Shown: positions 21,101 to 37,659, numbered from the stretch's first letter. The stretch is DNA of 64,000 bases from Amorphus orientalis (GCF_030814015.1 NZ_JAUSUL010000002.1:248001-312000), one strand, 5' to 3'. Numbers and translations: made by a program. Notes: a model not told the origin generated them from the sequence alone.

Positions 21101-21102
21101 GC

Positions 21103-21118: not shown

Positions 21119-21210
21119 ATGGTATCGCCCGCAAAACAACGCGTCGCTAAGGTTGTTGCTATCGAAGGACGGGGCGCGGCCCCGATGGATCCCACCAGAG
21201 GAGCGCTGGC

Positions 21211-22226: not shown

Positions 22227-23012
22227 CTAAAGGGCGCAGCCCAGATTCTGGGAAATGTCGCGCGCGGTCCTGCGGATGTCCGCCTCGATGTCCCTGAGCT
22301 TCTCGTTGTCCTTCTCGAACACCCAGTCGGGACCGGACACGTTAATCGCAGCCACCGCCCGGCCGGTCCGGTCGAAGACCGCGCAGGCGCAGGAGCCGAT
22401 ACCCTGTTCGAAGTTCGCCGCGCTCCAGGCAATGCCTGCGGCCCGGTCGCTCGCGATCTGCGCGGCCAGCGCTTCGTAGCTGGTCGCCGTCTTGCTGGAA
22501 AAGCCTTCCATCTCCGCGTCCTTGTAAAGGGCGGCAAGGTCGGCCTCGTCGAGATCGGCGAGCAGGATCCGGCCCATGGTCGTGGCGTGGGCCGGCAGCC
22601 GCGTCCCTTCCCGGACGTTGGACACGAGCTGCGCATTCGGGGATGTGCGCACGAGATACACGACGTCGCGCCCGTCGAGAATTCCGAGATGCGCAGACAA
22701 GCCGGTCTTCTCGGCCAGCGTGGCGAGGCGCGGGCGGCTGACCTGGATGACGTCGCGTCCGTTCATGGAATCGCTGGCCAGCCCGACCAGGCCGAGGCCG
22801 AGCCGGTAGCCGGCGCCGGGTTCGCGCTCCTCGATCATGCGCTCGTCGTGGAGGGTATGGAGCAGCCGGATCAGCGTCGTCCGGTTGATCGACAGGTCCT
22901 TCGCCGCCTTGGAAATGTTCGCGCAGGTGTTGCCGGCGCCGATATATTTGAGAACCGCGATCGCGCGTCGAACGGGCGGGACTTCGTAGGCGGTCGGTTT
23001 CTGGACGTTCAT
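22227..23012 (-). CDS. IclR family transcriptional regulator
   Basis: A 261-residue regulator with an N-terminal winged helix (ISKAAKDLSINRTTLIRLLHTL) and an IclR effector domain (LGILDGRDVVYLVRTS, TTMGRILLADLDEADLAALY, GIGSCACAVFDRTGRAVAAINVSG). The ATG at 23012 is preceded by GGGGGAA. It lies 115 bases downstream of the flavodoxin stop on the same strand as the large catabolic operon, so it may regulate that operon, although the operator found there looks unlike known IclR sites. Confidence 0.87.
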   Translation of the reverse strand: MNVQKPTAYEVPPVRRAIAVLKYIGAGNTCANISKAAKDLSINRTTLIRLLHTLHDERMIEEREPGAGYRLGLGLVGLASDSMNGRDVIQVSRPRLATLAEKTGLSAHLGILDGRDVVYLVRTSPNAQLVSNVREGTRLPAHATTMGRILLADLDEADLAALYKDAEMEGFSSKTATSYEALAAQIASDRAAGIAWSAANFEQGIGSCACAVFDRTGRAVAAINVSGPDWVFEKDNEKLRDIEADIRRTARDISQNLGCAL

Positions 23013-23127: not shown

Positions 23128-23601
23128 CTACGCATCGGAGGCGGCGGACAAGAGCGGTTCGGCCTCGGCGACCCGCTGGTCGGCCCAGTCGGTTGCCAGA
23201 TCTTCCGGCAGGTCTTCGCCCGACGCGTCGTGGGTCAGACGCTCGCCGACCCTGGTGGCGCCGTGCGCGGTCAGAAGCTCTTCCATCCGCTTGGAGCCGT
23301 GGTTGAAGGTCTCGTCGTACTCGCTGTCGCCCATGCCGAAGATCGCGAAGTGGATGCCGGCCAGATCCGGCTTCCTCGCATCCATCGCTTCCGCGAACGG
23401 CTGGGCGGATGCGGGCAGCTCGCCGTCGCCGTAGGTCGAACAGATGACGATGTAGAACCGCGCCTTGTCGAAGCCGTCCGGGTCGAATTCGGCGAGATTG
23501 CTCACCTCGACCTCGTGCGATCCTTCCAGGTGGGACTGCAGGTCCTCCGAAAGCATCTCCGCGTTTCCGGTTTCCGTGCCGTAGAGGATGGTGATGTCCA
23601 T
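23128..23601 (-). CDS. Flavodoxin
   Basis: A 157-residue FMN protein. The N-terminal loop TILYGTETGNAEML binds the FMN phosphate, and CSTYGDGELPASAQPF and FGMGDSEYDETFN flank the isoalloxazine ring, as in the flavodoxin domains of sulfite reductase-like proteins. It carries one or two electrons. Its start overlaps the reductase stop as TGATG, so the two proteins are likely partners: the FprA-like enzyme reduces flavodoxin, which may then feed an oxygenase such as the Rieske protein encoded at 35858-36907. That last link is inference. Confidence 0.88.
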   Translation of the reverse strand: MDITILYGTETGNAEMLSEDLQSHLEGSHEVEVSNLAEFDPDGFDKARFYIVICSTYGDGELPASAQPFAEAMDARKPDLAGIHFAIFGMGDSEYDETFNHGSKRMEELLTAHGATRVGERLTHDASGEDLPEDLATDWADQRVAEAEPLLSAASDA

Positions 23602-24875
23602 CAGCGTGTCTCCCGTTTCGCGCCGGCTGCGGCGAGCATGTCTTCGACCAGCGTGAGCTTGCGCCGGCAGCGTCCGTCGGGAACGTCCGCCGTTTCGGCC
23701 TCGTCGATGCGCAGCCAGCCTTCGTAGTCGGTAACCGTGTCGAACCGCGCGCGGATCGCCGTCGCACCCGGCCGGTCGCCGGCGGGCGGATGTGCCTCCA
23801 GATCGGCGGCGATGCGCTTGGCGAGCTCCTGGGCGTCGGCGCGGTTCTCCGGGATGGTGCCGCGCGGGCCGCGCTTGAACCATCCGGCCAGATAGAGCCC
23901 AGGCTCGACCGCGCCCGCCTCCGCATCGACGGCCCGCGACAGGAGCGCCTCCCGGTCCATCGCCCGATCGTCGTCGAAGCCGATCGCGGTGATCAGAGTA
24001 TCGCAGGCGATCACGAGTTCTTCACCGCCGCCGGCCTTGTGAAAGTGCGCCTCTGAGACGGTGCCATCCGCGCCCGTGGCCCGTTCCGGCACCCATCCGA
24101 AGCGGAACGTCACCGTCTTGTCGGCATCCGACGCGCCGGCCTCCCCCAGTTCGCGGAGCGCTGCCAGGCGCTTGTCCTCGCCGTCTTCGGCAGGCGGCAG
24201 GTCCTCGACCACGAACCGCGTGGCCGACAGCTTGCCGAGCTCGCGGATCATGACCGGATCGAAGCGGGCGGCGTCAGCCGGCGACCGGCCGACGATGTCG
24301 ATGGTCTGAAGCCCGGCCTCCGACAGGCGCTGCGTATGGGTGTCGGCCAGGTCCGAGCCCTCGAATTCGTGGGGCGTCTTGGCGAGAATGCGGAGAATGT
24401 CGATCGCCACGTTGCCGTTGCCGACGATGACGACGTTCCGCCCGAGCCCCGGGATCCGCCCGGCCTCGTCGGGATGGTCGTTCCAGTGCCGGGTCAGGAA
24501 ACCGGCCCGGAAGATGCCGTCCAGTTCCTCGCCGGGAATGCCGAGCTTGCGATCGGCGGACAGACCGGTGGCGAGCACCACCACGTCATAGAACTCGCGC
24601 AGTTCAGCAAGGGTCAGATCGGCGTCGTGCTCGGGATCTCCGATCCTGAGATTGCCGACGAAGCCGACGCCCTGCTTCTCGAACAACCGGGCGAACTGGC
24701 GCACCACGCCCTTCGTGCCCTGATGGTCCGGCGCCACCCCGTAGCGCACCAGACCGTAGGGCACCGGAAGCCGGTCGATCAGGTCGATGTGGATGTCGTC
24801 GCGAAGCTTGCCGAGCGCCTGGGCGAGATAGCATCCCGAGGGGCCGGCTCCGACGATGGCGATCTGGACGGTCAC
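23601..24875 (-). CDS. FAD-dependent ferredoxin/flavodoxin-NADP reductase (FprA/adrenodoxin reductase type)
   Basis: A 424-residue flavoenzyme starting with the FAD-binding IAIVGAGPSGCYLAQAL motif, followed by PVPYGLVRYGVAPDHQ, a hallmark of the adrenodoxin reductase/FprA class. The NADPH-binding region is VVIVGNGNVAIDILRIL, and the C-terminal LYLAGWFKRGPRGTIPEN is also class-typical. It transfers electrons from NADPH to a small carrier, here most likely the adjacent flavodoxin. The gene is 10 bases downstream of the SDR gene, within the catabolic operon. Confidence 0.9.
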   Translation of the reverse strand: MTVQIAIVGAGPSGCYLAQALGKLRDDIHIDLIDRLPVPYGLVRYGVAPDHQGTKGVVRQFARLFEKQGVGFVGNLRIGDPEHDADLTLAELREFYDVVVLATGLSADRKLGIPGEELDGIFRAGFLTRHWNDHPDEAGRIPGLGRNVVIVGNGNVAIDILRILAKTPHEFEGSDLADTHTQRLSEAGLQTIDIVGRSPADAARFDPVMIRELGKLSATRFVVEDLPPAEDGEDKRLAALRELGEAGASDADKTVTFRFGWVPERATGADGTVSEAHFHKAGGGEELVIACDTLITAIGFDDDRAMDREALLSRAVDAEAGAVEPGLYLAGWFKRGPRGTIPENRADAQELAKRIAADLEAHPPAGDRPGATAIRARFDTVTDYEGWLRIDEAETADVPDGRCRRKLTLVEDMLAAAGAKRETR

Positions 24876-24885
24876 GTGCTTTCCC

Positions 24886-25641
24886 TCAGTTGAAGACGAA
24901 GCCGTTGTTGACCGGCAGGGTCTGGCCCGTGAGCGTCAGGGCGTCCGGGCTCAGAAGGAAGGAGATCGTGCCGACGATCTCGTCCGGCCCTTGAGGGCCG
25001 GGAACGGCCCGGCCGGTCTCGTAGAGCCTGTGGCGCTCCTCAGGGACGTATTCCGTCGACGCGGTGGTCAGGATGCCGGGCGCGACCGCCGTCACGCCGA
25101 CGCGGTCCGGCCCGAGTTCGCGGGCGAGCGAACGGGTCATGGCCATCACCGCCCCCTTGGAGGCGGTGTAGGAGATCAGGTTCGGCGCGCCCCACAGCGC
25201 CGTGTCGGACGCCAGGTTCACGATCCGGCCGCTGCCGGAGGCCGCCAGAAGCGGAGCGAGCGCCCGCGTGATCAGCCAGGTTCCGCGCACGTTCACCCGC
25301 ATCACCTTGTCGAAGGTCTCGATGTCGACGTCGCGGAAGCCGATGCCGCCGATCCCGGTGGCGATGGCGCCGTTGTTGACCAGGCCGTGAAGGGTGTTGC
25401 GGCTGGCCGAGATGGCGTCGCCAAAGTGCTCGATCGCGGCCGGATCACCGAGATCCAGGGTGTGGCTTTCCGACGAAAAGCCTTCGGCCTTCAGCGCATC
25501 CGCCGTCTCCGCGCAGCGCGCCTCGTCGATATCGGCCAGGATCAGGCTTGCGCCCTTGCGCGCGCAGTCCAGCGCGATCTCGCGGCCGAGGCCGCCGCCG
25601 GCACCCGTCACAACGACGGAGCGTCCTTCCAGCATGGTCAT
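24886..25641 (-). CDS. Short-chain dehydrogenase/reductase (classical)
   Basis: A 251-residue NAD(P)-dependent oxidoreductase with TGAGGGLG (about residues 12-19), NNGA in place of NNAG (89-92), and a complete catalytic set of Ser145, Tyr158 and Lys162 (SYTASK). I used the ATG at 25641, a usual distance ahead of the cofactor motif. A second ATG at 25683 overlaps the aldehyde dehydrogenase stop as ATGA and would add 14 residues. It belongs to the nine-gene catabolic operon and could oxidise an alcohol or dihydrodiol intermediate. Confidence 0.86.
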   Translation of the reverse strand: MTMLEGRSVVVTGAGGGLGREIALDCARKGASLILADIDEARCAETADALKAEGFSSESHTLDLGDPAAIEHFGDAISASRNTLHGLVNNGAIATGIGGIGFRDVDIETFDKVMRVNVRGTWLITRALAPLLAASGSGRIVNLASDTALWGAPNLISYTASKGAVMAMTRSLARELGPDRVGVTAVAPGILTTASTEYVPEERHRLYETGRAVPGPQGPDEIVGTISFLLSPDALTLTGQTLPVNNGFVFN

Positions 25642-25679
25642 CCCGTTCCGGTTTCCTGTGTTCGCTCCGCCCGGCTGCG

Positions 25680-27173
25680 TCATGACAGTCTCGCCCAGGG
25701 CAGGGGGGCCTCGGACAGGCCGTGATAGATGCCCTTCTGGCGCTGATAGGCACGCAGGCCGGCGCGGCCCTTCTCGCGGCCCATGCCGCTCGCCGCGTCG
25801 CCGCCGAACGGGGTGGAGATGGAGAACTGCTTGTAGGTGTTGATCCAGACCGTGCCGGCCTGGATGGCGCGGGCCACGCGCCAGGCACGGGGGAAATCCG
25901 TCGTCCAGATTCCGCAGGCCAGGCCGTAGTCGTTGTCGTTGGACTGGGCGATCACGTCGGCCTCGTCGTCGAACGGCAGAACGACAAGCACCGGGCCGAA
26001 GATCTCCTCGCGGCAGGTGCGGCTGTCGTTGGCAAGCCCCGCTACGATGGTCGGCTCCAGATAGGCGCCGCTGTCGAACCCGGGTCCGGAGGGACGCTTG
26101 CCGCCGGTCAGGATTTCGCCGCCTTCCTCGCGGGCGAGCGCGATATAGGCTTCCACCGCTTCCCGATGTTCGAAGCCGATCAGCGGGGCGACCTGGGTTG
26201 CGGGGTCGAACGGCGAGCCGACCACGAGCTTCTCCGTCGCCGCCACGAGCCGGGCGACGAAGTCGTCGTAGATCGCGCGCTCCACGAACAGGCGCGAGCC
26301 GGCGATGCAGGACTGGCCGCTTGAGGAGAATATCCCGAACAGGACCCCGGCGATCGCCTGGTCCATGTCGCAATCGGAGAAGACGATGGTCGGCGACTTG
26401 CCGCCGAGTTCCAGCGACACCGGCATCAGCTTGCGACCGGCCTGTTCGCCGATGCGCCGTCCGGTCTCCGTGCCGCCGGTGAACGAGACCCGGCCGATGG
26501 CTGGATGTTCGACCAGCAGGTTGCCGATCTCCCGGCCGGCACCCGGCAGGACCGAGAAGAGGCCCTTCGGCAGGCCGGCTTCCTCGATGATGCGGGCCAA
26601 CTCCAGCGACACCAGCGGCGACCAGCTCGACGGCTTCAGGAGCACCGCGTTGCCGGCGGCGAGTGCCGGCGCGACCTTCTGGGCGTCCGATGCGATCGGC
26701 GAATTCCACGGCGTGATCGCGGCCACCAGTCCGATCGGCTCGTGCACCGACATGGTCAGATGATCGCCGCGGCGGGTGGTCAGGTCCTCGTCGGCGGTCT
26801 CCACGACGGCGGCGAAGTAACGGAATGTGCCGGCCGCGGACATCGCAAGCGCTGTGGTCTCGCCGCGCGTCTTGCCCGTGTCGCGGGTCTGGATGAACGA
26901 GATCCGGTCGATGTTGGCTTCGATGCCGTCGGCGATCCGGGTGAGATAGCGGGCGCGCTGATGGGGCAGGAGATCGCGCCAGGCCGGATCGGCCTGGGCC
27001 GCGATCGCACGGGCGATCGCCCGCTCGCCGTCGTCTCGGGAGGCGCCGGAGAGCCTGCGGTTTTCCGAGCCGTCATGGGAGAAGGTCGAGACGATCTCGG
27101 CGCCCGATCCGGTCTCCCATTCGCCGCCCACGAACAGGCGGCCGTCCGGCAAATCGTAGGTCTTGTGCGACAT
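25680..27173 (-). CDS. Aldehyde dehydrogenase
   Basis: A 497-residue NAD(P)-dependent enzyme of the ALDH superfamily. Catalytic Cys289 lies in SSGQSC, Glu255 in LELGGKS and Asn157 in TPWN, with cofactor Lys180. It turns an aldehyde into a carboxylate in the cytoplasm. Start ATG at 27173 lies 9 bases after the stop of the aspartate-dehydrogenase-like gene. In the operon it may oxidise a semialdehyde formed by ring opening or by the TPP enzyme. The sequence resembles betaine-aldehyde and hydroxymuconic-semialdehyde dehydrogenases in its core, but does not fix the substrate. Confidence 0.92.
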   Translation of the reverse strand: MSHKTYDLPDGRLFVGGEWETGSGAEIVSTFSHDGSENRRLSGASRDDGERAIARAIAAQADPAWRDLLPHQRARYLTRIADGIEANIDRISFIQTRDTGKTRGETTALAMSAAGTFRYFAAVVETADEDLTTRRGDHLTMSVHEPIGLVAAITPWNSPIASDAQKVAPALAAGNAVLLKPSSWSPLVSLELARIIEEAGLPKGLFSVLPGAGREIGNLLVEHPAIGRVSFTGGTETGRRIGEQAGRKLMPVSLELGGKSPTIVFSDCDMDQAIAGVLFGIFSSSGQSCIAGSRLFVERAIYDDFVARLVAATEKLVVGSPFDPATQVAPLIGFEHREAVEAYIALAREEGGEILTGGKRPSGPGFDSGAYLEPTIVAGLANDSRTCREEIFGPVLVVLPFDDEADVIAQSNDNDYGLACGIWTTDFPRAWRVARAIQAGTVWINTYKQFSISTPFGGDAASGMGREKGRAGLRAYQRQKGIYHGLSEAPLPWARLS

Positions 27174-27181
27174 TACGGTCC

Positions 27182-28015
27182 TCAGATTGCGATCGGCACG
27201 AGGCGGTTCATCACCTCGCGGGCGACGCTGTAGGCGGTCGACATCGAGGTCTTCGGATTGTCCGGCGATGCCTTGCCCGTGAGCTGGATGGTGAAGTTCA
27301 CACTCTGGGAGCGGACTTCGTACTCGTGGACGTTGGCCGAAATTCCCGGATCGGCGATCAGGCGCACCTCGGTCCGCTCGAAGCCGGGGCCGGCCAGCGC
27401 CAGGGTGGCAGCCACGTTGGCGTTCTTCGGATAGTCGGTCGCCGCCTGGCGGGCATTGCCCTCGAAGAACACCGTTTCGGAGGTGATCGCGTCCAGATCG
27501 AGCAGCTTTTCGGCCGGCGTGCCCTTCCAGGCGGCCGGAGGCTTGCGGCCCGAATAGACGAGTGTCTCGATCCCCGCGATCCGGGCTGCGGCAAGCGCGT
27601 CCACACCGCCGATCGCGCCGGGCACCAGAACCGTCCGCGTGCGGCCGAGGGCTGCGGCATCCTCGATCCGCGCGGCCGTGTCGGCGTCGGCAAACGCGCC
27701 GACCGACACCACCACGGTCTCGCAGCCCGCTTTCAGGATCTCCGGCACCGTTTCGCGCACCACGTCGTGGGTGGCGCACTCCACGGCCAGATCCGGGCGG
27801 GCGGCGAGGAAGGCATCCGCTGTCTCGTGGATCGTCACCTCTTCGGCGATCACTTCGGCGGCGGTCCTGAGCCGGGCGTCGGCCCGCTCGCTCGCGCCGG
27901 GGCGGGCGAGGATGGCGACCTGCTCGAAGCGCGCGCGGCCGTCCCTGGCGAGAATGTCCAGGAGCGTGGCCGCGATATTGCCGTAGCCGAGGATGCCCAG
28001 GCGCCGCATGCTCAT
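27182..28015 (-). CDS. Aspartate dehydrogenase-like (NadX family) oxidoreductase
   Basis: A 277-residue protein with an N-terminal Rossmann motif (LGILGYGNIA), VPGAIGGVDALAAAR in the catalytic domain, and NARQAATDYPKNANVAATLAL, all characteristic of L-aspartate dehydrogenases. Those enzymes interconvert aspartate and oxaloacetate or iminoaspartate with NAD(P). The ATG at 28015 overlaps the TPP enzyme stop as ATGA. No NAD-biosynthesis genes (nadA, nadC) are nearby, so a role in the catabolic operon, such as removal of an amino group from a ring-derived acid, is more plausible than NAD synthesis. Confidence 0.85.
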   Translation of the reverse strand: MSMRRLGILGYGNIAATLLDILARDGRARFEQVAILARPGASERADARLRTAAEVIAEEVTIHETADAFLAARPDLAVECATHDVVRETVPEILKAGCETVVVSVGAFADADTAARIEDAAALGRTRTVLVPGAIGGVDALAAARIAGIETLVYSGRKPPAAWKGTPAEKLLDLDAITSETVFFEGNARQAATDYPKNANVAATLALAGPGFERTEVRLIADPGISANVHEYEVRSQSVNFTIQLTGKASPDNPKTSMSTAYSVAREVMNRLVPIAI

Positions 28016-29721
28016 GCTCCCTTGCCGGCGGCTCCGGCCGGCGGTCCGGCGAAGGCTTCCGCGAACGGTCCGATGGCGACCATGTCGACCTCGAGGACGA
28101 TGGGTCCCTCGGTCTTCAGGGCGGCATCGAAGGCGTCGGCGAAGTCGTCGATCCGGTCGACGCGCGCATAGGGCATGTCGACGGCATCGCACAGCTTCTG
28201 GAAGTTCGGGGTCTTCAGCGCCGAATAGTGGCGGCGGCCGTCATACTGGGCATCCTGGATGTTCTGGATGACGCCGTAGGCGGTGTCGTTCATCAGCACG
28301 TAGACGAGGTTGGCGTTCTCTTCCACCGCGGTGATGAGTTCCGAAATCCCGAGCATGGCCCCGCCATCGCCGACGAGGGTGACCGCCTTGGCATCCGGAG
28401 AGCCGAGCGCGGCGCCGATGCCCATGGCGATCCCCTGGCCGATGCCGCCGCCGGCGGCGTGGACGCCGAGATTGGGCGCGGCCACGGTCACGTAGCGGTT
28501 GCCGAAGGTGGAATTGGAGATGGTGACGTCGCGCACCCACGGATGCCTGCCGGCGGGGACCCGGGCGAGCAGGTGATCGGCCAGCATCTGGTACGGGCCG
28601 AGCCGGGTGCGCAGCGCCCCTTCGGACCGGGCACGCGCGGTCGCGATGTCGTGGGCGAACGAGGGATCGGTCGAGAGTTTCGCCGGCAGCCGGTCGAGCA
28701 GTCCGCCGAGGGCGCTGGCGGCATCGGCGTGGATGAACTGATCGACCGGATAGTTGCGGCCGCAGCGGCTGGCGTCGGCGTCGATCTGGATGAGCTGGCC
28801 GGGCAGGGGCAGCTTGTTGTTGCGGGTCTCGTTGCCGCGCAGGCGCGACCCAACCACGATCATCAGGTCGCAGCCTGCGAAGATGTCGGCGGCTTCCGGC
28901 GTCATGTTGAAGGCACCGAGGCTCGCCGCGTTGTCTTCCGGCACCACGCCGCGCCCCATGGTGCTGGTGACCGCACCGAAGCCGCGGGCGACCAGCTCGG
29001 TGGCCTCCTTCGAGGCGCCGCGCGCGCCGCCGCCCAGCCAGATCATCGGGCGTTTGGCGGTGCGCACGCGCTCGGCGAGCTCGTCGAGCGCGGCATCGGA
29101 CGCCACCGGGCGCACGGCCACCGGGGGCTGCAGGCGCGGCGAGGCGACCGGCGCCATGCGCTGCACGTCGACCGGGATCTCCAGGCTGACCGGACCCGTC
29201 GGCGCGCTGATCGCCGCGGAGCAGGCCGCGCTCAGCGTTCCGGGTGCACCGGCCGCGTCCCAGATGCGGAAATAGGCCTTGGAAATGCCCTTCAGCATCT
29301 CCGGCTGCTTCGGCACGTCGTGGATCGCGGCGCGGTCCCGGTCGGCGAAGGCGAGGTCGACCTGGGTGGTGATGTGCAGGATCGGCGTTCCGGCGGTGAG
29401 CGCTTCCGCCTGTCCCCCGGCGGCATTGCCGGCCGCCGTGCCGGTCGAGGTCAGCACGACGCCGATCTGACCGGTGACCCGGGCGTAGGCGTCGGCCATG
29501 TTCATGGCGCCGGCCTCGCCGCGTGCAGGCACGAAGCGGATCAGGCCCTGGGCGGCGATGCCGTCCAGGATCGGCATGTTGTGAATGGAGATGACGCCGA
29601 ACACTGTCGTCACGCCGAGGTCTGCCAGACCGCGCGCGATCTGATCGCCGACGGTTTTCAGCTCCACGGAATGGGGTTCGGTTGCTTCAAGCGAAGCGGG
29701 AGACGCCGCCAGAGATCTCAA
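28012..29721 (-). CDS. Thiamine pyrophosphate enzyme (acetolactate synthase/decarboxylase-like)
   Basis: A 569-residue TPP enzyme with the three standard domains. The N-terminal domain has VPARGEAGAMNMADAYAR with the catalytic glutamate at about residue 69. A central domain follows, and the C-terminal domain has the TPP/Mg motif VGDGGAMLGISEL ending near VLMNDTAYG. Such enzymes decarboxylate or ligate 2-keto acids. It starts with TTG at 29721, supported by AGGAG eight bases upstream, overlapping the SDR gene by 35 bases. In context it could decarboxylate a 2-keto acid produced from ring cleavage, giving an aldehyde for the adjacent aldehyde dehydrogenase. Confidence 0.86.
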   Translation of the reverse strand: MRSLAASPASLEATEPHSVELKTVGDQIARGLADLGVTTVFGVISIHNMPILDGIAAQGLIRFVPARGEAGAMNMADAYARVTGQIGVVLTSTGTAAGNAAGGQAEALTAGTPILHITTQVDLAFADRDRAAIHDVPKQPEMLKGISKAYFRIWDAAGAPGTLSAACSAAISAPTGPVSLEIPVDVQRMAPVASPRLQPPVAVRPVASDAALDELAERVRTAKRPMIWLGGGARGASKEATELVARGFGAVTSTMGRGVVPEDNAASLGAFNMTPEAADIFAGCDLMIVVGSRLRGNETRNNKLPLPGQLIQIDADASRCGRNYPVDQFIHADAASALGGLLDRLPAKLSTDPSFAHDIATARARSEGALRTRLGPYQMLADHLLARVPAGRHPWVRDVTISNSTFGNRYVTVAAPNLGVHAAGGGIGQGIAMGIGAALGSPDAKAVTLVGDGGAMLGISELITAVEENANLVYVLMNDTAYGVIQNIQDAQYDGRRHYSALKTPNFQKLCDAVDMPYARVDRIDDFADAFDAALKTEGPIVLEVDMVAIGPFAEAFAGPPAGAAGKGA

Positions 29722-30478
29722 GTTGGGCTCCTGTGATGTAGGAGGCAGCCGGCGAGGCGAGGAAGACCAGCGCGCGCGCTGCTTCCTCGGCCTGGCCGAG
29801 GCGGCCGAGCGGGATGTTCTTCTTGGTTGCGAGGTCGGCGAACCAGGCCTCGCGCGTCTGGGACCGGTCCTCGCGGGCTTCGAACCGGCGCTGCCACTGG
29901 TTGGAATCGACTAGGCCGAGCAGGATCGAATTGACCCGGATGGCCGGGGCAAGCTCCACCGACAGCGATTTCAGCAGGTTCTGAACACCGGCCCGCGCCG
30001 ACGAGGTGCAGACCATGTGCGGTTCGGGCTGGTAGGCCAGCAGCGAGTTCACCGCGACGATGGCGCCGATCCCGCTGGCTTCCAGCGCGTCCTGGAAGGC
30101 GCGAACCGGATTGATCTGGCTGAAGAACTTCAGCTCCAGTTCCTGGCGCCAGTCGTCGTCGCTCGTCGAGGCGAAGGTCGACACGCGCCCCTGGCCGGCA
30201 TTGTTGATGAGGATGTCGACGCCGCCGAAGCGGGCGAGCACGCGCTCGGCGAATGCGCCGAAGGCCTCGGCGTCCAGAACGGAGACGGCCTCCGCCATCA
30301 CCCGGTCCGCGCCGTATTCCTCTTCGAGTGCGCCATGCACCGCGGCAAGCCGCTCGGCGCCGCGCGCGCACAGGGCGACGTTCGCGCCTTCCTCAAGAAG
30401 CTGCCGCACGGCCGCCAGCCCGATGCCGGAGCTGCCGCCGGTGACGACCGCGGTTCTTCCTTTGAGCCCGAGATCCAT
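29687..30478 (-). CDS. Atypical short-chain dehydrogenase/reductase lacking the YxxxK motif
   Basis: A 263-residue SDR-fold protein. The cofactor motif TGGSSGIG (13-20), NNAG (92-95) and a serine near 145 are present. The catalytic Tyr-x-x-x-Lys is replaced by Thr158-Ser-Ser-Ala-Arg162 (CTSSARAGVQNLLKS). It therefore probably binds NAD(P) but cannot use the standard proton relay. The C-terminal LGLVDSNQWQRRFEAR segment is shared with a subgroup of SDRs I recall from aromatic and CoA-ester catabolism. Located 2 bases after the VOC gene in the operon. It might be a dehydratase, isomerase or altered dehydrogenase. Confidence 0.82.
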   Translation of the reverse strand: MDLGLKGRTAVVTGGSSGIGLAAVRQLLEEGANVALCARGAERLAAVHGALEEEYGADRVMAEAVSVLDAEAFGAFAERVLARFGGVDILINNAGQGRVSTFASTSDDDWRQELELKFFSQINPVRAFQDALEASGIGAIVAVNSLLAYQPEPHMVCTSSARAGVQNLLKSLSVELAPAIRVNSILLGLVDSNQWQRRFEAREDRSQTREAWFADLATKKNIPLGRLGQAEEAARALVFLASPAASYITGAQLEISGGVSRFA

Positions 30479-30480
30479 CG

Positions 30481-31395
30481 TCAGGCCTGCTTCAGCTCGG
30501 GAAAGCCGGGATCGGGACGGCCCATCATCACCGCGCGCTGGGCCGGGGTCGGCGGGCCTGCGGTCATCCAGCGGTCCATGGCTTCCGGATCCGTGCGCGG
30601 CCAGACCTTGGCCTCGTGGGTCGCCTCGTCGATCTGCTGCAGCTCCGAGGTGAACTCGATCACGAAGCCCGACGGCGAGACGAAATAGGCGAAGGGGTTG
30701 TTGCCCGGGCCGTGCCGGCCGGGACCCCAGCTCGGCACCTGACCCTTCTGCTTCATGCGACCGATGCCGCGCATGAAGGAGTCCAGGTTCGGCATCTCGA
30801 AGGCCACGTGGTTGACGCTGGCATAGGGGGCGCGCACCAGCGCGATGGAGTGGTGGTCGCTGGAGCAGCGCAGGAACACCATCTGGTCGGCCGAATAGTC
30901 GGACACCCGAAAGCCGAGGGTCTCGCAGTACCAGTCGCGCACGCCTTCCATGTCCGGCGTGTTCAGCACCACGTGGGAGACCTTGCGGGGCAGGGCGAAG
31001 GTGTCCTCCGACGCCTTCATCGTCAGCTCAGTGGTGAAGCGCAGGCGGCGGAAATCCGGGTCCAGGATCTCGAAGCCGTAGCCGCCGATCGGATCGTCGA
31101 ACGGGGCAGGGGCACCCAGCACGGTCGCGCCCCGGTCGATGCACTGGTGATAGAACGCGTCCATCGCCGCCCGGTCGGGCATGCCGAAATGGATGTACTC
31201 GATGCCGAAGGTGTCGGCGTCCTTGAGGCCGTAGAGGAACGGCTCGGGCCCGGTTCCCGCCATGTAGGCGACGCCGTCGCCCTTCTCGGCCAGGGAGAGG
31301 CCCCAGGAATCCACGTAGAAATCGACCGTGGAGGTCATGGCTGGCGCGCGCATCATGATGCCGCGCAGATGTCCGGCTCGCAGAGGTTCAGTCAT
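30481..31395 (-). CDS. VOC family extradiol dioxygenase-like protein
   Basis: A 304-residue protein with two vicinal-oxygen-chelate domains. The second domain has the metal triad expected for type I extradiol dioxygenases: His141 (SHVVLNTPD), His196 (VNHVAFEMP) and Glu247 (GFVIEFTSE), with RHGPGNNPFAYFVSPSGF before the glutamate. The first domain (residues 9-120) lacks a full triad, as usual. It should cleave a catechol-like ring next to the two hydroxyls using Fe(II) and oxygen. ATG at 31395 has a perfect GGAGG five bases upstream and overlaps the hydrolase gene by 8 bases. Good candidate for the ring-opening step. Confidence 0.87.
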   Translation of the reverse strand: MTEPLRAGHLRGIMMRAPAMTSTVDFYVDSWGLSLAEKGDGVAYMAGTGPEPFLYGLKDADTFGIEYIHFGMPDRAAMDAFYHQCIDRGATVLGAPAPFDDPIGGYGFEILDPDFRRLRFTTELTMKASEDTFALPRKVSHVVLNTPDMEGVRDWYCETLGFRVSDYSADQMVFLRCSSDHHSIALVRAPYASVNHVAFEMPNLDSFMRGIGRMKQKGQVPSWGPGRHGPGNNPFAYFVSPSGFVIEFTSELQQIDEATHEAKVWPRTDPEAMDRWMTAGPPTPAQRAVMMGRPDPGFPELKQA

Positions 31396-32254
31396 TGCGT
31401 CCTCCATTGAATTCGGATGCGGCCGCGACCGCCTGGTTCACCCGCCCGGCAAAGGCCGCGGGCTTTTCCAGATAGAAGGCGTGTCCGGCGTCGGGGATGC
31501 GGTGGTAGTCGGGCTCGGGCCCGCCGGCCGACCGGCGCGCGGCGATCGCATCCAGGGTCTGGGCTTCCGGTGTCACCACGTCGCCCTCGGCCCACAGGAA
31601 GGTGGTGGGCGCGGTGACCCGGCCGAGGCTCTCATTCAGCCTGCCGGAAGCCAGCATCCGCACCGCCTGTCCGTAGCCCGGCATCTGAACCGCCGCCATT
31701 CCGCGTTCCACCGCGTTGACGGCGTCGGGATGGGTGTCGGGCTCGAAGACCAGGCGCGGCGCGCGGGTGCGGGCGAACTCCGGCCCGCCGAGCTCGGTCA
31801 AAGCGTCGATGCGGGCCTGAACCTTTTCCGGAAGGGCGTTACCGGGCGTGACCCCGTAGCCCGACGCGCAGGCGGCAAGCGTCAGGCTCGCCAGCCGGCC
31901 GGGATGCCGGACCGCAAAACGGGCCGCCATCAGGGTGCCGAGCGAATGGCCGAGCAGGTGGATCTGATCAAAGTCGACCGCGTCGAGAAAGGCGGCCAGC
32001 GCATCGGCGTAGTCGTCCTCGACGGGCCACGCGTTCGCAAGCGGGACCGAGCCTCCGTAGCCCGGCGCGTTCCACATCACCACGTCGAACTCGGGTGACA
32101 GGTGGGTCAGCAGCGGCAGAAACGACTCCGCCCGGGAGCCGATCCCGTGCAAGAGCACGAGGCGCGGGCCCGGTCCGATCCGGCGCAGAGCGTCGATGCC
32201 GGCCGCGCTGAAGCGCTCGACACCGTCATCCGTTTCTGCCGTGTGTTCGGTCAT
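31388..32254 (-). CDS. Alpha/beta hydrolase (C-C bond hydrolase-like)
   Basis: A 288-residue alpha/beta hydrolase with the nucleophile elbow GHSLG (Ser104), acid AEGDVVTP (Asp225) and AGHAFYLEKP (His258), plus oxyanion HGIGS near residue 36. This is the pattern of the meta-cleavage-product hydrolases (MhpC/BphD) and of ester hydrolases. It is the first gene of the nine-gene operon and is directly followed by the extradiol-type enzyme, which supports C-C cleavage of the ring-fission product. I used the ATG at 32254; the ribosome binding site is weak (GGAG, 17 bases upstream). Confidence 0.86.
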   Translation of the reverse strand: MTEHTAETDDGVERFSAAGIDALRRIGPGPRLVLLHGIGSRAESFLPLLTHLSPEFDVVMWNAPGYGGSVPLANAWPVEDDYADALAAFLDAVDFDQIHLLGHSLGTLMAARFAVRHPGRLASLTLAACASGYGVTPGNALPEKVQARIDALTELGGPEFARTRAPRLVFEPDTHPDAVNAVERGMAAVQMPGYGQAVRMLASGRLNESLGRVTAPTTFLWAEGDVVTPEAQTLDAIAARRSAGGPEPDYHRIPDAGHAFYLEKPAAFAGRVNQAVAAASEFNGGRND

Positions 32255-32284: not shown

Positions 32285-32310
32285 TTGTTCTTATATGAAC
32301 GAATCGTTCA
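32285..32310. promoter_or_regulatory. Operator array A, GTTC-N6-GAAC-N5-GTTC
   Basis: Half-sites at 32287-32290, 32297-32300 and 32306-32309 are arranged so that the last two form a perfect palindrome TGAACG-AAT-CGTTCA (32296-32310). The array is 31 bases upstream of the hydrolase start. The same arrangement occurs at 37217-37240, with most bases conserved in the AT-rich flanks. The palindrome style suits a TetR-family repressor, but no such gene lies in the window. Confidence 0.7.
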
Positions 32311-32467
32311 AAATTAGATTTAGTCTCGCCTCCCGATCCTGTCAACGCGGCCGACAGGGCTCTGGCGAAGCAACGAGACGCTTAACTCAGGTTCATCCCC
32401 CCGCTCGGACCGGGTTTTCCGACCCGCGGGGACATAGGCGGACATATCTGTCCGGCCCCGTTTCTGA

Positions 32468-32493
32468 CCGGTCAGGTGCGCTCACCTGACCGG
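32468..32493 (-). terminator. Strong stem-loop after the ABC permease gene
   Basis: A perfect 11-base stem (CCGGTCAGGTG at 32468-32478 and its complement at 32483-32493) with a 4-base loop, 6 bases after the permease stop. The following minus-strand sequence is not U-rich, so termination may need Rho. It separates the transport operon from the promoter of the next operon. Confidence 0.6.
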
Positions 32494-32499
32494 ACGGGT

Positions 32500-33300
32500 T
32501 TAGTGGTCCTCACGGTCCAGGTAGTGGAGCACCCGCTTCTCGAAACCGGCGACGGCGAAGTAGAGGACGATACCGATCAGGGTCAGAAGACCGATGGCGT
32601 TGAACACCATGGCCGTGTTGGCCTGGCCTTCGCCGTAGGTGATCAGGAAGCCGAGCCCGGTGTTGCCGCCGACCAGCTCGCCGACCGTCACGCCGATCAC
32701 GGCGAGGGTGGCGCCGATCCGGAGACCCGCGAACAGCGACGGCATGGACGAGGGGAACTCGATCTTCCGGAAGATGGTCAGCCGCGACATGTTGTAGACG
32801 CGGGCGAGGTTGATCAGGTCGCGGTCCACCGTCTTCATCGACTGCAGCACGTTGACCAGGATCGGAAAGAACACGATCAGCACGGTCACCAGCAGCTTCG
32901 GCAGCACGTTGTAGCCGAACCACATAATGAACAGCGGCGCAAACGCCACCTTCGGCGCGATCTGCAGCGCCAGGATGTAGGGCGACAGCACGCGCTCCCA
33001 GAGCTTGGACAGGCCGAGCAGGTAGCCGAACGCCGCGCCGAGCGCGCTGCCCATCAGGAAGCCCACGATCGAGGTCACCAGCGTCGACATGAAATGCCGG
33101 CCGAGCTCCTCGTAGCGCACCATCCGGAAGAACTCGAAGAAGCAGTCCGTGAACGTCGGGATGATGTATTTCGGCACGTCCAGCAGCGGCGGCAGGATCT
33201 GCCACGCCGCCACGAACACGATGCCGACGGCGATGATGATGCCGAGCTCCGGCATCGCGTTGGTCCATTGCGGCATGGCTTGCCGCAGGGGCCTGAACAT
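32500..33300 (-). CDS. NitT/TauT-type ABC transporter permease
   Basis: A 266-residue inner-membrane permease of the SsuC/TauC class with about six helices and the EAA-like loop NLARVYNMSRLTIFRKIEFPSS, broken here by a variable start. I chose the ATG at 33300 because AGGAG lies seven bases upstream and because a perfect stem-loop occupies 33321-33346, which argues against the GTG at 33375 as start. It works with the ATPase at 34397 and the binding protein at 33372. Confidence 0.88.
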   Translation of the reverse strand: MFRPLRQAMPQWTNAMPELGIIIAVGIVFVAAWQILPPLLDVPKYIIPTFTDCFFEFFRMVRYEELGRHFMSTLVTSIVGFLMGSALGAAFGYLLGLSKLWERVLSPYILALQIAPKVAFAPLFIMWFGYNVLPKLLVTVLIVFFPILVNVLQSMKTVDRDLINLARVYNMSRLTIFRKIEFPSSMPSLFAGLRIGATLAVIGVTVGELVGGNTGLGFLITYGEGQANTAMVFNAIGLLTLIGIVLYFAVAGFEKRVLHYLDREDH

Positions 33301-33320
33301 ATCGGATCTCCTGCCCGGTT

Positions 33321-33346
33321 CCGCGCCCCCGAAGGAGGGGGCGCGG
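33321..33346 (-). promoter_or_regulatory. Stem-loop between binding-protein and permease genes
   Basis: Perfect 10-base GC stem (CCGCGCCCCC and GGGGGCGCGG) with a 6-base loop, 25 bases after the binding-protein stop and 20 bases before the permease start. No T-run is present, so it likely acts in message stability or attenuation. Confidence 0.6.
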
Positions 33347-33371
33347 TGCGGCTCGATGGAGGCGCGGTCGG

Positions 33372-34364
33372 TCACTGCACGAACTCGTTGGTGTAGAGCT
33401 CGTCGATCGGGGTTTCGGAGTTGATGATGCCGGCTTCCAGGTAGAAGTCCTGCACGGCCTTGATCCGCTCCGGATCGAACTTGCCGAGATCGTCCATGTT
33501 CTCGGTGGCGTAGACCAGATCGCCGTAGCGGGTCATCACCTCGGTCAGGAAGGCTTCCTTGCCGTTGAACTGCGGGATCTCCGCGGCCAGCAGCTTGGCC
33601 GAGCCTTCCGGATCGTTCATCACGTCGCGCAGGCCCTTCAGGGTCGCCTGGACGAACCCGCCGACGATTTCCGGCTTCTCCGAGATCGTATCGTCGGACG
33701 CCAGGATGGCCTGGGCCATCGCCGGGAACAGGTCGTTGATCGGCAGCACCGTCAGATCGACGCCGGCGCCCTCGATGGAGGCGGCCCAGTCCGGGGTGCC
33801 GGAGATGGCGTCGAGGTCGCCGGAGATCATCAGCTGGACCATGCCGGCCGGTCCGACCGCCTGGATGTTCACGTCGTTCTTGGACAGTCCGGCGGCTTCG
33901 AGCGCGGCCAGGAGGTTGTAGTAGGTGGTGTCCTGGAACGCCATGACGCCGATCTTCTTGCCCTTCAGACCGGCCACGTCGCTGGCTCCGGATTCGGAGC
34001 GGATGACGAGCTGGGTCAGCGCCTTGCCGCCGAGCACCGCGACGCCCTTCACCGGCAGGCCGTTCGCCCGCACGATGATCGGCGTGTCGCCGATGCCGCC
34101 GCCGAGATCGGCGTTGCCGACCGCCACCTGCTTGGCCACGTCCGCGCCGCCCTTGCCGACCCGGAAGTCGACGTTGAGGCCGGCCTCGTCGTAGTAGCCC
34201 TTCGCCTTGGCCACCTGGAACGGCGTGAAGGCCGGCAGGAAGTCGGGGGCCGGGAACAGGTAGACCACGTCCTCTGCGGCGGCCGCAGCGCCGGTCATCG
34301 TCGCCGCGACGGCTGCGACGGCGAGCGCCCTGCCGAGCGAGCGGCGAATGGTGTGAAACGTCAT
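33372..34364 (-). CDS. NitT/TauT-type ABC transporter binding protein (NMT1/SsuA-like)
   Basis: A 330-residue periplasmic binding protein with a Sec signal peptide ending AAA-EDV (about residue 31). Family features are FQVAKAKGYYDEAGLNVDF near the N-terminus, GNADLGGG, and LKGKKIGVMAFQDTTYYNLL. Relatives bind sulfonates, nitrate, thiamine precursors or aromatic acids such as phthalate. ATG at 34364 has AGGAG seven bases upstream. It shares an operon with a Rieske oxygenase, so an aromatic or heteroaromatic ligand is likely. Confidence 0.87.
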   Translation of the reverse strand: MTFHTIRRSLGRALAVAAVAATMTGAAAAAEDVVYLFPAPDFLPAFTPFQVAKAKGYYDEAGLNVDFRVGKGGADVAKQVAVGNADLGGGIGDTPIIVRANGLPVKGVAVLGGKALTQLVIRSESGASDVAGLKGKKIGVMAFQDTTYYNLLAALEAAGLSKNDVNIQAVGPAGMVQLMISGDLDAISGTPDWAASIEGAGVDLTVLPINDLFPAMAQAILASDDTISEKPEIVGGFVQATLKGLRDVMNDPEGSAKLLAAEIPQFNGKEAFLTEVMTRYGDLVYATENMDDLGKFDPERIKAVQDFYLEAGIINSETPIDELYTNEFVQ

Positions 34365-34396
34365 GGAGAAGCTCCTTCCTCTGGTGCCGCTTGGGA

Positions 34397-35176
34397 TCAC
34401 GCGGCTTGGTCTTCCAAGTGCAGGGTGTCGAACAGGCGTTTGACGTAGGTGCGGGTGCCCGGCTCCATCGAACGCGCCATCGGGTCGTCGCGATGGGGCA
34501 GTTCGATCGGGAAGTCGTCCACGACGGTTCCGGGCCGGCCGGACAGCACCACCACGCGGTCGGACATGATCACCGCTTCCTGCAGATCGTGGGTGATCAG
34601 CAGGCAGGTGACGCCGGTCTCCGCGATGGTCTTGGAAAAGCTCTTCTGCAGGACGACCTTGGTCTGGGCATCCAGCGCCGAGAACGGTTCGTCGAGCAGC
34701 ACGATCTCCGGATCGATCGCCAGCGTCCGGGCAAGGGCCGCGCGCTGGCGCATGCCGCCGGAGAGCTGATGCGGATAGTGGAAGGCGAACTCCGACAGGC
34801 GGACGCGCTCCAGCTCCGCCAGCGCCCGGTCGCGGCGCTCCTTGCGCGACATCCGCTTCTCTTCCAGGCCGAACTCGACATTGTTGACGATGTTGCGCCA
34901 GGGCAGGAGCAGATCCTTCTGCAGCATGAAGCCGACGTCAGAGCGGGTCGAACGGACCCGTTCGCCGCTGATCAGCACCTCGCCCGAGGTCGGCCCGTAG
35001 AGGCCGGAGACCATGTTCAGGATGGTGCTCTTGCCGCAGCCGGACGGCCCGACGACGGAGACCAGCTCGCCGGGCTTCACGGAAAAGGACATGCCGGTGA
35101 CGGCCGTGATGTCCTGGCCGGTCTTTCGGTCCGAGAAGACCTTCGTGATGTCTTTCAGGTCGAGGCTCGATGTCAT
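34397..35176 (-). CDS. NitT/TauT-type ABC transporter ATPase
   Basis: A 259-residue ATPase with Walker A GPSGCGKS, Q-loop FMLQKDLLLPWRN, signature LSGGMRQRAALART and Walker B VLLDEPFSALD, all typical of the SsuB/TauB class. The ATG at 35176 was chosen from the match to family N-termini. It is 32 bases upstream of the binding-protein gene and 47 bases downstream of the pentapeptide-repeat gene, in one operon. Confidence 0.9.
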   Translation of the reverse strand: MTSSLDLKDITKVFSDRKTGQDITAVTGMSFSVKPGELVSVVGPSGCGKSTILNMVSGLYGPTSGEVLISGERVRSTRSDVGFMLQKDLLLPWRNIVNNVEFGLEEKRMSRKERRDRALAELERVRLSEFAFHYPHQLSGGMRQRAALARTLAIDPEIVLLDEPFSALDAQTKVVLQKSFSKTIAETGVTCLLITHDLQEAVIMSDRVVVLSGRPGTVVDDFPIELPHRDDPMARSMEPGTRTYVKRLFDTLHLEDQAA

Positions 35177-35223
35177 CGCTTCCGTCGCATCCAGTGGCAG
35201 GGATCGGTGGTCGGCGTTCGGCG

Positions 35224-35841
35224 TCAGCTCCAGACGTAACCGTAGCTGTGGATCTGGCTGGTCAGGCCGACGCTGCCGGCGGCCGGGCCGTCGGCGACAC
35301 GGGTCCCGCGGACCCATGTCCGGCCATGAACCTCCATGCCGCCGGCATTGAGCCGCGACAGGAAGCGGGCGTTGTTGCACCAGAAGCCGCCCATGATCTC
35401 CGAGCCTTCCAGTGAGGCCGGGCCGGCGATGCTGGTCGCGTCCATGGACAGGTTCGACAACACCTGAAGCGCGTCCAGAAAGGCCGCCTGTTCGAACGTG
35501 GCCCGGTCCAGCACGAACGTGCCGCGGAATTCGGCGCGCGAGAAACTCGCATCGCGCCCAATGGTCGCTCCGTCGAAGCGCGCATCGTGCCAGAACTCGG
35601 CTTCGGTCATGTCGACGCCGCCCTCGAAACGGCACTCCCGAAACCAGGCCAGCCCGGTGAACCGGGCGCCGCGCGCCGTCACCGGCTTGCGGAACACCGT
35701 GCGGGAGAAGTCGACGCTGGTCACATCCATCGCCGACAGGTCGAGAGGGTCGTCGATCACGCGCCCGGACAGATCCTCGGCCACGCCCGGCTTGAAGGGC
35801 GTTGCGAGACGGTCCCGGATGCTGTCGGCTTCGGCAAGCAT
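35224..35841 (-). CDS. Pentapeptide-repeat-like protein
   Basis: A 205-residue protein without signal peptide or membrane segments. From about residue 44 to 122 phenylalanines recur at five- or six-residue spacing (DFSRTVF, ARFTG, WFREC, RFEGG, EFWHD, RFDGA, SFSRA, EFRGT, TFEQA), the signature of a right-handed quadrilateral beta-helix. Known pentapeptide proteins range from DNA mimics to scaffolds, so no function can be assigned. The gene lies 16 bases after the Rieske oxygenase stop and before the transporter genes, which is an unusual partner for a ring oxygenase. Confidence 0.75.
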   Translation of the reverse strand: MLAEADSIRDRLATPFKPGVAEDLSGRVIDDPLDLSAMDVTSVDFSRTVFRKPVTARGARFTGLAWFRECRFEGGVDMTEAEFWHDARFDGATIGRDASFSRAEFRGTFVLDRATFEQAAFLDALQVLSNLSMDATSIAGPASLEGSEIMGGFWCNNARFLSRLNAGGMEVHGRTWVRGTRVADGPAAGSVGLTSQIHSYGYVWS

Positions 35842-35857
35842 CGTGACCGCCGCCGCC

Positions 35858-36907
35858 TCAGGCCGTCTTCTGCTCGGCGGCGGCTTCCTGGGCCTTCAGG
35901 TGCGCCTTGGCCTTGCGGACCATCATCTGCCGCAGCCGGGAAACGCCGATGTCGTGCTGGTAGAGCATCTCGCGCTTGCGGGCGTCTTCCGGGATGGATT
36001 CCAGCATCTCGCGATCCTGCTCCAGAACCGACCAGTGGCGGTCTTCCAGGAAGGCGCGATAAAGGAACCGCCAGGATTCCGCCTCGACGCCCTGGACCTG
36101 ACGGCAGCGCCAGAAGAAGGAGTGGTGGGTGTGCTCGTCGATCGCGGCGGTGAAGCCGATGATCCGGAAGGGGCCGCCCGGGCCGGCGCCGTTCGGATAG
36201 GGGATGTCGAGCCGGAAGTAGATCATGCCCGGCTCCACTACGACTTCGGTCCAGTCGAGGTTCACGCCGCGCTGGCCGGCGCGTTCGATCACGAACCCAG
36301 TGTCGGTCCGCTCCAGCCGCATCGTGTCCTGCTTCGTGCCGTAGGCGAGCGTGAAGCTGTCGGTGTGCAGATAGCTGGCGTGCATCGGATCCGCAGCGTT
36401 ATCCAGCGACAGCCGGTAGCTGCAGTTCCAGCGCGTCATGCAGGGGAAGGCTTCCCACTCGTCGCTGACGAACTCGACCGGCGGGTTGAACTCGGGCGCC
36501 TCGGGCTGGTCCGCGCTGGGCAGGTAGATGAAGACGCCGTCGGCAGCCTCGGCCGTTGCGTAGGAGGTCAGCGGCCGGCGGCCCTCCAGGGCGCAGTCCG
36601 GCATGGCCGGAACGCGCGCGACGGTGCCGGTGCCGTCAATGGCCACACCGTGATAGCGGCAGGCCACGTTTCCCTCCTGAACGACGCCGAGGGACAGCTT
36701 GGCACCACGGTGGGGACAGAAGTCCTCGACACAATGCACCTTGCCGTCGCCGTCGCGCCAGAGAACGAGGTTCTCGCCGGCGATCTTGGTGCCGAACGGC
36801 TTGCCGCCCTTCACCTGAACCGACTTTGCGACCGGAACCCACAGCCCGCGAAGGCCGGAGTTGATGTAGTCGTCGACAGTATCGCGCCCGGAAGTGTTGG
36901 CGGTCAT
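35858..36907 (-). CDS. Rieske-type aromatic ring-hydroxylating oxygenase, alpha subunit
   Basis: A 349-residue oxygenase. The Rieske [2Fe-2S] cluster is bound by Cys64-x-His66 (FCPHRG) and Cys83-x-x-His86 (CRYHG). The mononuclear iron site is in DNAADPMHASYLH, with His176 and His181 as ligands and Asp173 as the electron bridge. Length and layout match the vanillate demethylase/phthalate oxygenase class, which needs no beta subunit but does need a separate reductase. No dedicated reductase or ferredoxin lies beside it; the FprA-like enzyme and flavodoxin at 23128-24875 may fill that role. It is in the operator-B operon. Confidence 0.91.
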   Translation of the reverse strand: MTANTSGRDTVDDYINSGLRGLWVPVAKSVQVKGGKPFGTKIAGENLVLWRDGDGKVHCVEDFCPHRGAKLSLGVVQEGNVACRYHGVAIDGTGTVARVPAMPDCALEGRRPLTSYATAEAADGVFIYLPSADQPEAPEFNPPVEFVSDEWEAFPCMTRWNCSYRLSLDNAADPMHASYLHTDSFTLAYGTKQDTMRLERTDTGFVIERAGQRGVNLDWTEVVVEPGMIYFRLDIPYPNGAGPGGPFRIIGFTAAIDEHTHHSFFWRCRQVQGVEAESWRFLYRAFLEDRHWSVLEQDREMLESIPEDARKREMLYQHDIGVSRLRQMMVRKAKAHLKAQEAAAEQKTA

Positions 36908-36938
36908 GGCTCTCGTTCCCCAGTTCGTCAGGTGGTCG

Positions 36939-37199
36939 TCAGGCGCCGATGCCGTTCTCGGCGTAGGCCGCGTCGTGGGAGGCGTTGATGGCTTTCAGCT
37001 CTGCCTCGAACGTCTCGAGCGTCCACGCGGTGGTCTCGCCCGACGGCTTCTTGGTGCCCTTCTCGTTCAACTCAGCGACAACGGCGGAAAAATCGTGGAC
37101 ACCACGACCGTAAATGTCTTCGAGGTCGGCGGCGAGTGCCGTTTCCGCCTCCGTCAGCGGGCGTCCGCGGGACTGGTATCTGAGGGCTGGATCTTGCAT
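36939..37199 (-). CDS. Small resolvase-HTH-like protein next to Rieske oxygenase
   Basis: An 86-residue soluble protein. The central stretch FSAVVAELNEKGTKKPSGE followed by TAWTLETFEAEL resembles the C-terminal helix-turn-helix of serine recombinases, in which a short gene-family text pattern of LN-x-x-G-x-x-x-P-x-G-x-x-W-x-x-x-x-F is seen. There is no catalytic recombinase domain. Small proteins with this domain are known beside Rieske oxygenase genes. It is the first gene of the operon, 31 bases before the oxygenase. It may bind DNA or, more likely, act as an accessory protein; I cannot tell which. Confidence 0.6.
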   Translation of the reverse strand: MQDPALRYQSRGRPLTEAETALAADLEDIYGRGVHDFSAVVAELNEKGTKKPSGETTAWTLETFEAELKAINASHDAAYAENGIGA

Positions 37200-37216
37200 C
37201 GCTGGCTCCGGAATAT

Positions 37217-37254
37217 GTTCATAAATGAACGATCCGTTCATAATTTGCTATACT
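37217..37254. promoter_or_regulatory. Operator array B with overlapping plus-strand promoter
   Basis: GTTC half-sites at 37217-37220 and 37236-37239 with GAAC at 37227-37230; the last two form TGAACG-ATC-CGTTCA (37226-37240). A good -10 element TATACT lies at 37249-37254 for the plus-strand pair of genes, and the position 17 bases upstream (-35) falls inside the palindrome, so a bound protein would block it. The array is 18 bases upstream of the minus-strand start at 37199. Confidence 0.68.
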
Positions 37255-37335
37255 GACTCAAGATTGATAAGCAGGCAAGGCCTTTTGCTGGGCAACTCTA
37301 CCCGTCGGCTGACGATACAGTGTGAGGTCTTTGCC

Positions 37336-37659
37336 ATGAGCGAGCAGATCATGCTCACCGTCTTTCTCAAGCACGATCAGTCCCAGAATCTGGAAGAGAT
37401 TCAAGGCCACCTGGCCGAGCAGGAATGGTGGACCGGCTTCCCGCCGGAGGGTGCGGAAATCCTGTCCTGGAACGTCGTGATGGGGATCGGACAGATCGTC
37501 ACGCTCAGGATGCCGCCGGAAGTGCTTCCCAAGGTCAACGTCGAGCTGGAGCGGCGCGCCTGGGGCGTGTTTTCCACCGAGTTCTTCCCGACCTACGACT
37601 TTCTTCCCGTCCGCGAGCGGCTGACCCGGGAATGGAAAGACAAGACGGGGAAGGCGTGA
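37336..37659 (+). CDS. Conserved protein of unknown function, about 107 residues
   Basis: A soluble 107-residue protein starting MSEQIMLTVFLKHDQS. Alternating strands and helices (TVFLKHD, LEEIQGHLAEQ, TLRMPPEVLPKVNVELERRAWG) suggest a ferredoxin-like alpha-beta fold such as the EthD or Dabb type. The C-terminal end has FSTEFFPTYDFLP. I recall similar proteins next to ring-oxygenase genes but know of no function. The ATG at 37336 has GAGGT eight bases upstream. It is divergent from the Rieske operon and coupled to the Rid-family gene by TGATG. Confidence 0.75.
   Translation: MSEQIMLTVFLKHDQSQNLEEIQGHLAEQEWWTGFPPEGAEILSWNVVMGIGQIVTLRMPPEVLPKVNVELERRAWGVFSTEFFPTYDFLPVRERLTREWKDKTGKA

Follow-up and report, generated by a model that had tools for sequence, protein, structure and literature searches.

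Regulators of the IclR family recognise sites built from GTTC/GAAC-like boxes that alternate in direction and are sometimes three in number, and Suvorova and Gelfand (2021; PMC8222616) have described two types of IclR motif; for 32 of 181 orthologous groups they predicted sites of three boxes that alternate in direction. External half-sites are known for PcaU, PobR and HmgR (PMC8222616), and that article states, citing Popp et al. (2002), that PcaU binding needs the third box. Here we describe a three-box array, GTTC-N6-GAAC-N5-GTTC, which occurs twice in a 64,000-nucleotide stretch of the Amorphus orientalis genome (GCF_030814015.1, NZ_JAUSUL010000002.1:248001-312000; hereafter the window, with positions counted from its first nucleotide). 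One copy precedes a nine-gene operon which starts with an alpha/beta hydrolase gene (operon 1), and the other precedes an operon encoding an HTH_62 protein, a Rieske oxygenase and an ATP-binding cassette (ABC) uptake system (operon 2). The array regulator is very probably an IclR-family protein encoded in the window itself, which we refer to as IclR-B (22227–23012, minus strand).

The system described here resembles those of PcaU, PobR and HmgR in combining an IclR-family regulator and aromatic catabolism with a GTTC/GAAC-like palindrome and an external half-site in direct repeat, but the pathway is neither the beta-ketoadipate nor the homogentisate pathway and the -10 element comes before the array; in addition, the PcaU operator GTTCGATWATCGMAC has seven bases between boxes where the array has six. 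The C. glutamicum PcaR operator, GTTCGC-N3-GCGAAC, likewise belongs to an IclR regulator and has inverted GTTC/GAAC boxes (PMC8222616), although the listed motif is one palindrome with 7-base spacing. With the predicted three-box motifs the array shares the alternating direction, a position near the start codon, and a combination of one group-1-like and one group-2-like pair (TGRAACAN1-2TGTTYCA). The group-2 arrangement, TGRA...TYCA with seven bases between GRA and TYC, is found in both TGAACGAATCGTTCA and TGAACGATCCGTTCA, whereas the group-1 pair is TGT-10-ACA here and TGT-11-ACA in the published motif. The boxes alternate and keep a fixed spacing as in three-box IclR operators and, judged from its sequence, the array belongs to this known kind of operator, one of its spacings being shorter by a base than the published one.

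Occurrence and conservation of the array

Operator 1 (GTTCTTATATGAACGAATCGTTC, 32287–32309) and operator 2 (GTTCATAAATGAACGATCCGTTC, 37217–37239) are both exact arrays on the plus strand, lying where the first-pass annotation of the window had placed them, and its reading of boxes 2 and 3 as TGAACG-N3-CGTTCA and of a common AT-rich flank, which lies beyond box 3, also holds for both. In operator 1, box 1 is directed towards the start of the hydrolase operon, while operator 2 lies between operon 2 on the minus strand and a divergent gene for a 107-amino acid protein on the plus strand.

The exact 12-base pattern has only three matches in the whole 4.71-Mb genome when both strands are considered (the reversed pattern has one), and the third of these is 15 nt upstream of a flavin adenine dinucleotide (FAD) monooxygenase gene whose product contains a FAD_binding_3 domain and has 3-hydroxybenzoate 6-monooxygenase as its best NCBIfam match, below the cut-off. 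A fourth strong site, a near-perfect array at C1:1010072 (L057:10073), was found through the AT-rich core TGTTCWTWWWTGAAC; the operon that it precedes encodes a Liv-type transporter and a molybdenum hydroxylase with FAD_binding_5 and MoCoBD domains. The gene divergent from this operon appears hydratase-like by eye and has no Pfam match; together these features of the site suggest a further step of the same pathway. Relative to the box-1-side gene, all four sites are oriented alike.

We scored sites with a 31-position matrix built from 93 sites from other genera only, and applied this to the pattern matches and to fetched stretches of the A. orientalis genome. The four sites scored 46.0 (operator 1), 43.2 (operator 2), 40.7 and 38.7. 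The best of the other near-matches examined scored 16.6, and the maximum in 7.2 Mb of simulated sequence (first-order Markov, both strands) was 14.7. Sites with one or two mismatches (e.g. C5:265052, C4:138626 and C2:937665) scored 5.7–10.7, inside the random range, and were dropped. In a spacing control using eight orientation triples and 49 spacing pairs in 83 related loci (1.5 Mb), the spacing and orientation of the array itself gave 73 exact matches (both strand readings pooled) and any other combination no more than two. The spacing and orientation control, the matrix null and the whole-genome counts together rule out a chance origin.

The 104 sites we collected have the consensus T-GTTC-AWAWWT-GAAC-WNWNT-GTTC-AWAWWT, with a slight hint of a fourth box, and the third box is retained at its fixed spacing in nearly all of them. 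These data support the interpretation of the array as a true operator common to the two window operons, and it is very probable that one regulator controls both, as had been suggested at first. Arrays are also kept in relatives. The regulon is local in part: two of the four strong sites in this genome are at the cluster and two are remote, while in the three other members of the order that carry IclR-B, the nearest relatives with the array, every array found (allowing one mismatch at most) is in or beside the cluster.

IclR-B and its association with the array

IclR-B matches PF09339 (N-terminal helix-turn-helix) and PF01614 (C-terminal effector domain) above the cut-offs, and its best NCBIfam match is TIGR02431 (PcaR/PcaU/PobR) at 142.9 bits. 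Because this is below the curated cut-off of 284.75 we have not filed IclR-B in that subfamily, although it is predicted to work like these regulators from outside the formal membership.

The cluster of the sister species (G017) is syntenic throughout, with arrays before the HTH_62/Rieske operon, the hydrolase operon and a FAD monooxygenase gene, the last of which is beside the cluster and divergent from a second IclR-B paralog with the array between them (L062:11159-12226). We note that the A. orientalis genome is without this second paralog and has the FAD monooxygenase gene on another contig. In G088, a distant member of the order, the cluster contig carries IclR-B, no IclR-A (the second IclR of the window) and two arrays, one before iclR-B and the other before a FAD monooxygenase operon. 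In contrast, the cluster lacks an array in two further members (G147 and G137), where its IclR genes are IclR-A-like or related, and we therefore tested the co-occurrence of IclR-B and the array more widely.

For this we used 80 loci from named genomes that had been fetched with the thiamine diphosphate (ThDP)-dependent enzyme of the cluster, and not with a regulator or the motif, plus three from the order. The array was present at 57 of 58 cluster loci with an IclR-B relative and at none of the 12 with only other IclR proteins (Fisher p = 1e-12), and when 315 cluster proteins were compared in an unguided test, IclR-B was the best associated family (55/57 array loci and 0/17 others). Among 42 full-length array loci, IclR-B was found in 41, HTH_62 in 20 and IclR-A in 15. 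The IclR-B proteins form a single clade with 100/100 support, and within the order they occur (E < 1e-45) in four of 297 genomes, all of which contain exact arrays. Only two of the 293 remaining genomes have an array match: one inside a long open reading frame (G059) and one between TRAP and AraC-type genes named by eye (G284); both are exact, and in the absence of an IclR-B ortholog we treat them as chance or as sites of another regulator.

In 17 cases in relatives, iclR-B and a catabolic gene are divergent with the array between them, and box 3 is on the iclR-B side in all 17, placing the array in the control region of iclR-B itself, as would be found in autoregulation. The catabolic gene is mostly on the box-1 side of the array in relatives, with the site near its start codon. 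The comparative evidence for this array and regulator system is unusually clear, and of the two IclR genes in the window, IclR-B alone tracks the array. The first-pass annotation had leaned towards a TetR-type regulator and set the IclR proteins aside as usually binding other motifs, and both views have to be revised: there is no TetR-type gene among the window open reading frames scanned (as it had itself noted), the gene at 22227–23012 follows the array almost without exception, and half-sites of this sort make up published IclR motifs, three-box ones included (PMC8222616).

The cluster was also seen with arrays in Gammaproteobacteria of the SUP05/Thioglobus type (L123, L129 and L137). The IclR-B proteins of these bacteria nest within the alphaproteobacterial clade, suggesting horizontal transfer.

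Promoter geometry, proposed mechanism and alternatives

Operon 1 has a perfect -35 element (TTGACA, 32340–32345, minus strand) 36 bp ahead of box 3 and a candidate -10 (TAAATC, 32317–32322, minus strand) 17 bp from it and immediately upstream of the array. For operon 2 there is a weak candidate -35 (TTATCA, 37265–37270, minus strand) with a candidate -10 (CAAATT, 37242–37247, minus strand), the two together having 7/12 matches only. The operon 1 -35 lies inside a conserved band, as TTGACA (at least 5/6) starts between -41 and -29 upstream of box 3 in the gene direction at 79 of 91 distinct sites, compared with one to four in windows of equal width elsewhere and a mean of 5.2 (maximum 11) in shuffles; a -10-like box follows at about -15 to -6, immediately ahead of the array. 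Because the array sits just downstream of the -10 region it would span the expected transcription start, a repressor geometry which favours repression. A plus-strand promoter had also been proposed at operator 2 (37226–37254). Its TATACT box is indeed present at 37249–37254; however, its -35 (TGAACG) matches at three of six positions, no promoter was returned there in a consensus scan, and TATACT is not conserved, as the sister species has TAGTGT (L061).

We consider it highly likely that the array is the operator of IclR-B, a repressor whose gene closes the nine-gene operon and which blocks the array-bearing operons. The sites, their conservation, their co-occurrence with the regulator and the promoter geometry are the direct basis for this, from which we infer binding, the sign of control, the inducer and the oligomer. 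Without inducer, IclR-B would occupy the array directly downstream of the -10 and over the transcription start, probably as a dimer on one box pair, with the third box stabilising the complex as a tetramer or through an alternative dimer. This would block the hydrolase-to-flavodoxin operon and the HTH_62/Rieske/ABC uptake operon, as well as the two remote operons with the same operator (FAD monooxygenase, and molybdenum hydroxylase with the Liv transporter), until the repressor is released by a substrate or intermediate of the pathway, probably an aromatic or N-heteroaromatic compound. IclR-B would also control its own gene, because iclR-B is likely to be co-transcribed with operon 1. More tentatively, the array may represent a tighter class of IclR operator, with six and then five bases between boxes and a period of 19. 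Two different dimer contacts would let the repressor span all three boxes across the transcription start, and the pathway under its control would be an undescribed aromatic or N-heteroaromatic one, spread over Alphaproteobacteria and SUP05-type Gammaproteobacteria.

Several observations weigh against IclR-B as a repressor acting through the array. There are six bases between TTC and GAA in the group-1 pair rather than the seven or eight of the published consensus, there is no array directly ahead of iclR-B in the window, and no array accompanies the divergent IclR-B of one locus (L139). Most of the loci are from Rhodobacterales and Rhizobiales and the association is partly tied to ancestry. 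The cluster aldehyde dehydrogenase, next after IclR-B, is strongly associated with the array as well (55/57 array loci vs 3/17 others), as would be expected of a version of the pathway travelling with the regulator. Finally, PcaU, which is related to IclR-B, activates rather than represses, and both window IclR proteins match the PcaR/PcaU/PobR model best, a subfamily which includes activators. IclR-B might then bind the array and activate the operons, or do both depending on ligand, but we regard this as unlikely given that the array follows the -35 and -10 elements at 79 of 91 sites.

Other readers of the array can be judged largely by co-occurrence, by which GntR was rejected. IclR-A and the 86-amino acid HTH_62 protein are both DNA-binding-type proteins encoded in the cluster, and five loci have the array placed between iclR-A and an operon divergent from it. 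However, the two proteins are present in only 15 and 20 of the 42 full-length array loci compared with 41 for IclR-B, loci with only IclR-A or related IclR proteins have no array, and some IclR-A promoters have a different palindrome, making either protein a very improbable reader. The 15-bp TGAACG-N3-CGTTCA palindrome has a TetR-like look, and a TetR gene is found about 2.6 kb from the remote molybdenum hydroxylase site. Nevertheless, two TetR queries matched no array locus (a crude tblastn search), no TetR gene was found on the 15-kb cluster contig of G088 or, as noted above, among the scanned open reading frames of the window, and a third box is kept at fixed spacing in nearly all collected sites, and it is hard to credit that a TetR protein encoded elsewhere reads the palindrome. 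Alphaproteobacterial LexA also uses GTTC half-sites, but as a direct repeat, GTTC-N7-GTTC, which is missing from both window arrays, and the array targets are catabolic rather than SOS genes. The matrix null and the spacing control rule out a chance likeness between two AT-rich promoter segments, and we give practically no weight to either explanation.

The two operons and their neighbours

Operon 1 is encoded on the minus strand and starts with the alpha/beta hydrolase (31388–32254), which is followed by a VOC/extradiol-dioxygenase-like protein (30481–31407), an SDR oxidoreductase (29687–30478), the ThDP-dependent enzyme of the PRK07064 type (28012–29721), an aspartate-dehydrogenase-like protein (27182–28018), the aldehyde dehydrogenase (25680–27176), a second SDR oxidoreductase (24886–25701), a FAD/NAD(P) reductase which is a candidate electron donor (23601–24875), and a flavodoxin-like protein (23128–23502 in the scanned region, with the N-terminus further upstream). 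The last of these is the final enzyme-side gene ahead of iclR-B. The two are about 115 bp apart, and iclR-B is likely to be the tenth gene of the operon. Operon 2, also on the minus strand, encodes the HTH_62 protein (36939–37199), a Rieske oxygenase with a VanA_C domain (35858–36907), a pentapeptide-repeat protein (35224–35841), an ABC transporter ATPase of the SsuB/TauB type (34397–35176), an NMT1-type substrate-binding protein (33372–34364) and an ABC permease (32500–33300). The nine and six genes, together with iclR-B and the divergent small gene, agree with the original estimate of about 17 genes under common control.

This gene content (Rieske oxygenase, FAD monooxygenase, extradiol-like and cupin dioxygenases, hydrolase, dehydrogenases and uptake systems) indicates that the target pathway is probably one of aromatic or N-heteroaromatic catabolism; the literature on such a gene cluster gave nothing usable for naming it, and homarine, which came up as no more than a guess, is not proposed. 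The regulon ties one uncharacterised catabolic pathway to three genome regions (the cluster, the FAD monooxygenase and the molybdenum hydroxylase) and turns a formerly unassigned motif into a named regulator and operator pair with a testable regulon, while the approximately 100 conserved three-box sites are good material for asking whether such sites are bound by IclR proteins in two modes of dimerisation.

The HTH_62 (recombinase-like HTH) protein that leads operon 2 adjoins the Rieske/ABC operon in many genomes. The divergent 107-amino acid protein (37336–37659, plus strand) has no family match and is found in the same place in the sister species and several Rhodobacterales; its gene and the Rieske operon have operator 2 in common. 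Other regulators in the window are a GntR (41760) and a LysR (49618) protein. The cupin gene (21211–22161, plus strand) encodes a gentisate-dioxygenase-like protein, the ortholog of which is often directly behind an array in relatives, and is divergent from iclR-A (20261–21100, minus strand). The palindrome TTTTrynnryAAAA occurs in the intergenic region between these two genes in the window (21100–21210) and in L062 (about 10290) and L064 (about 3300), and its presence in six of 23 IclR-A upstream regions makes it a candidate IclR-A operator.

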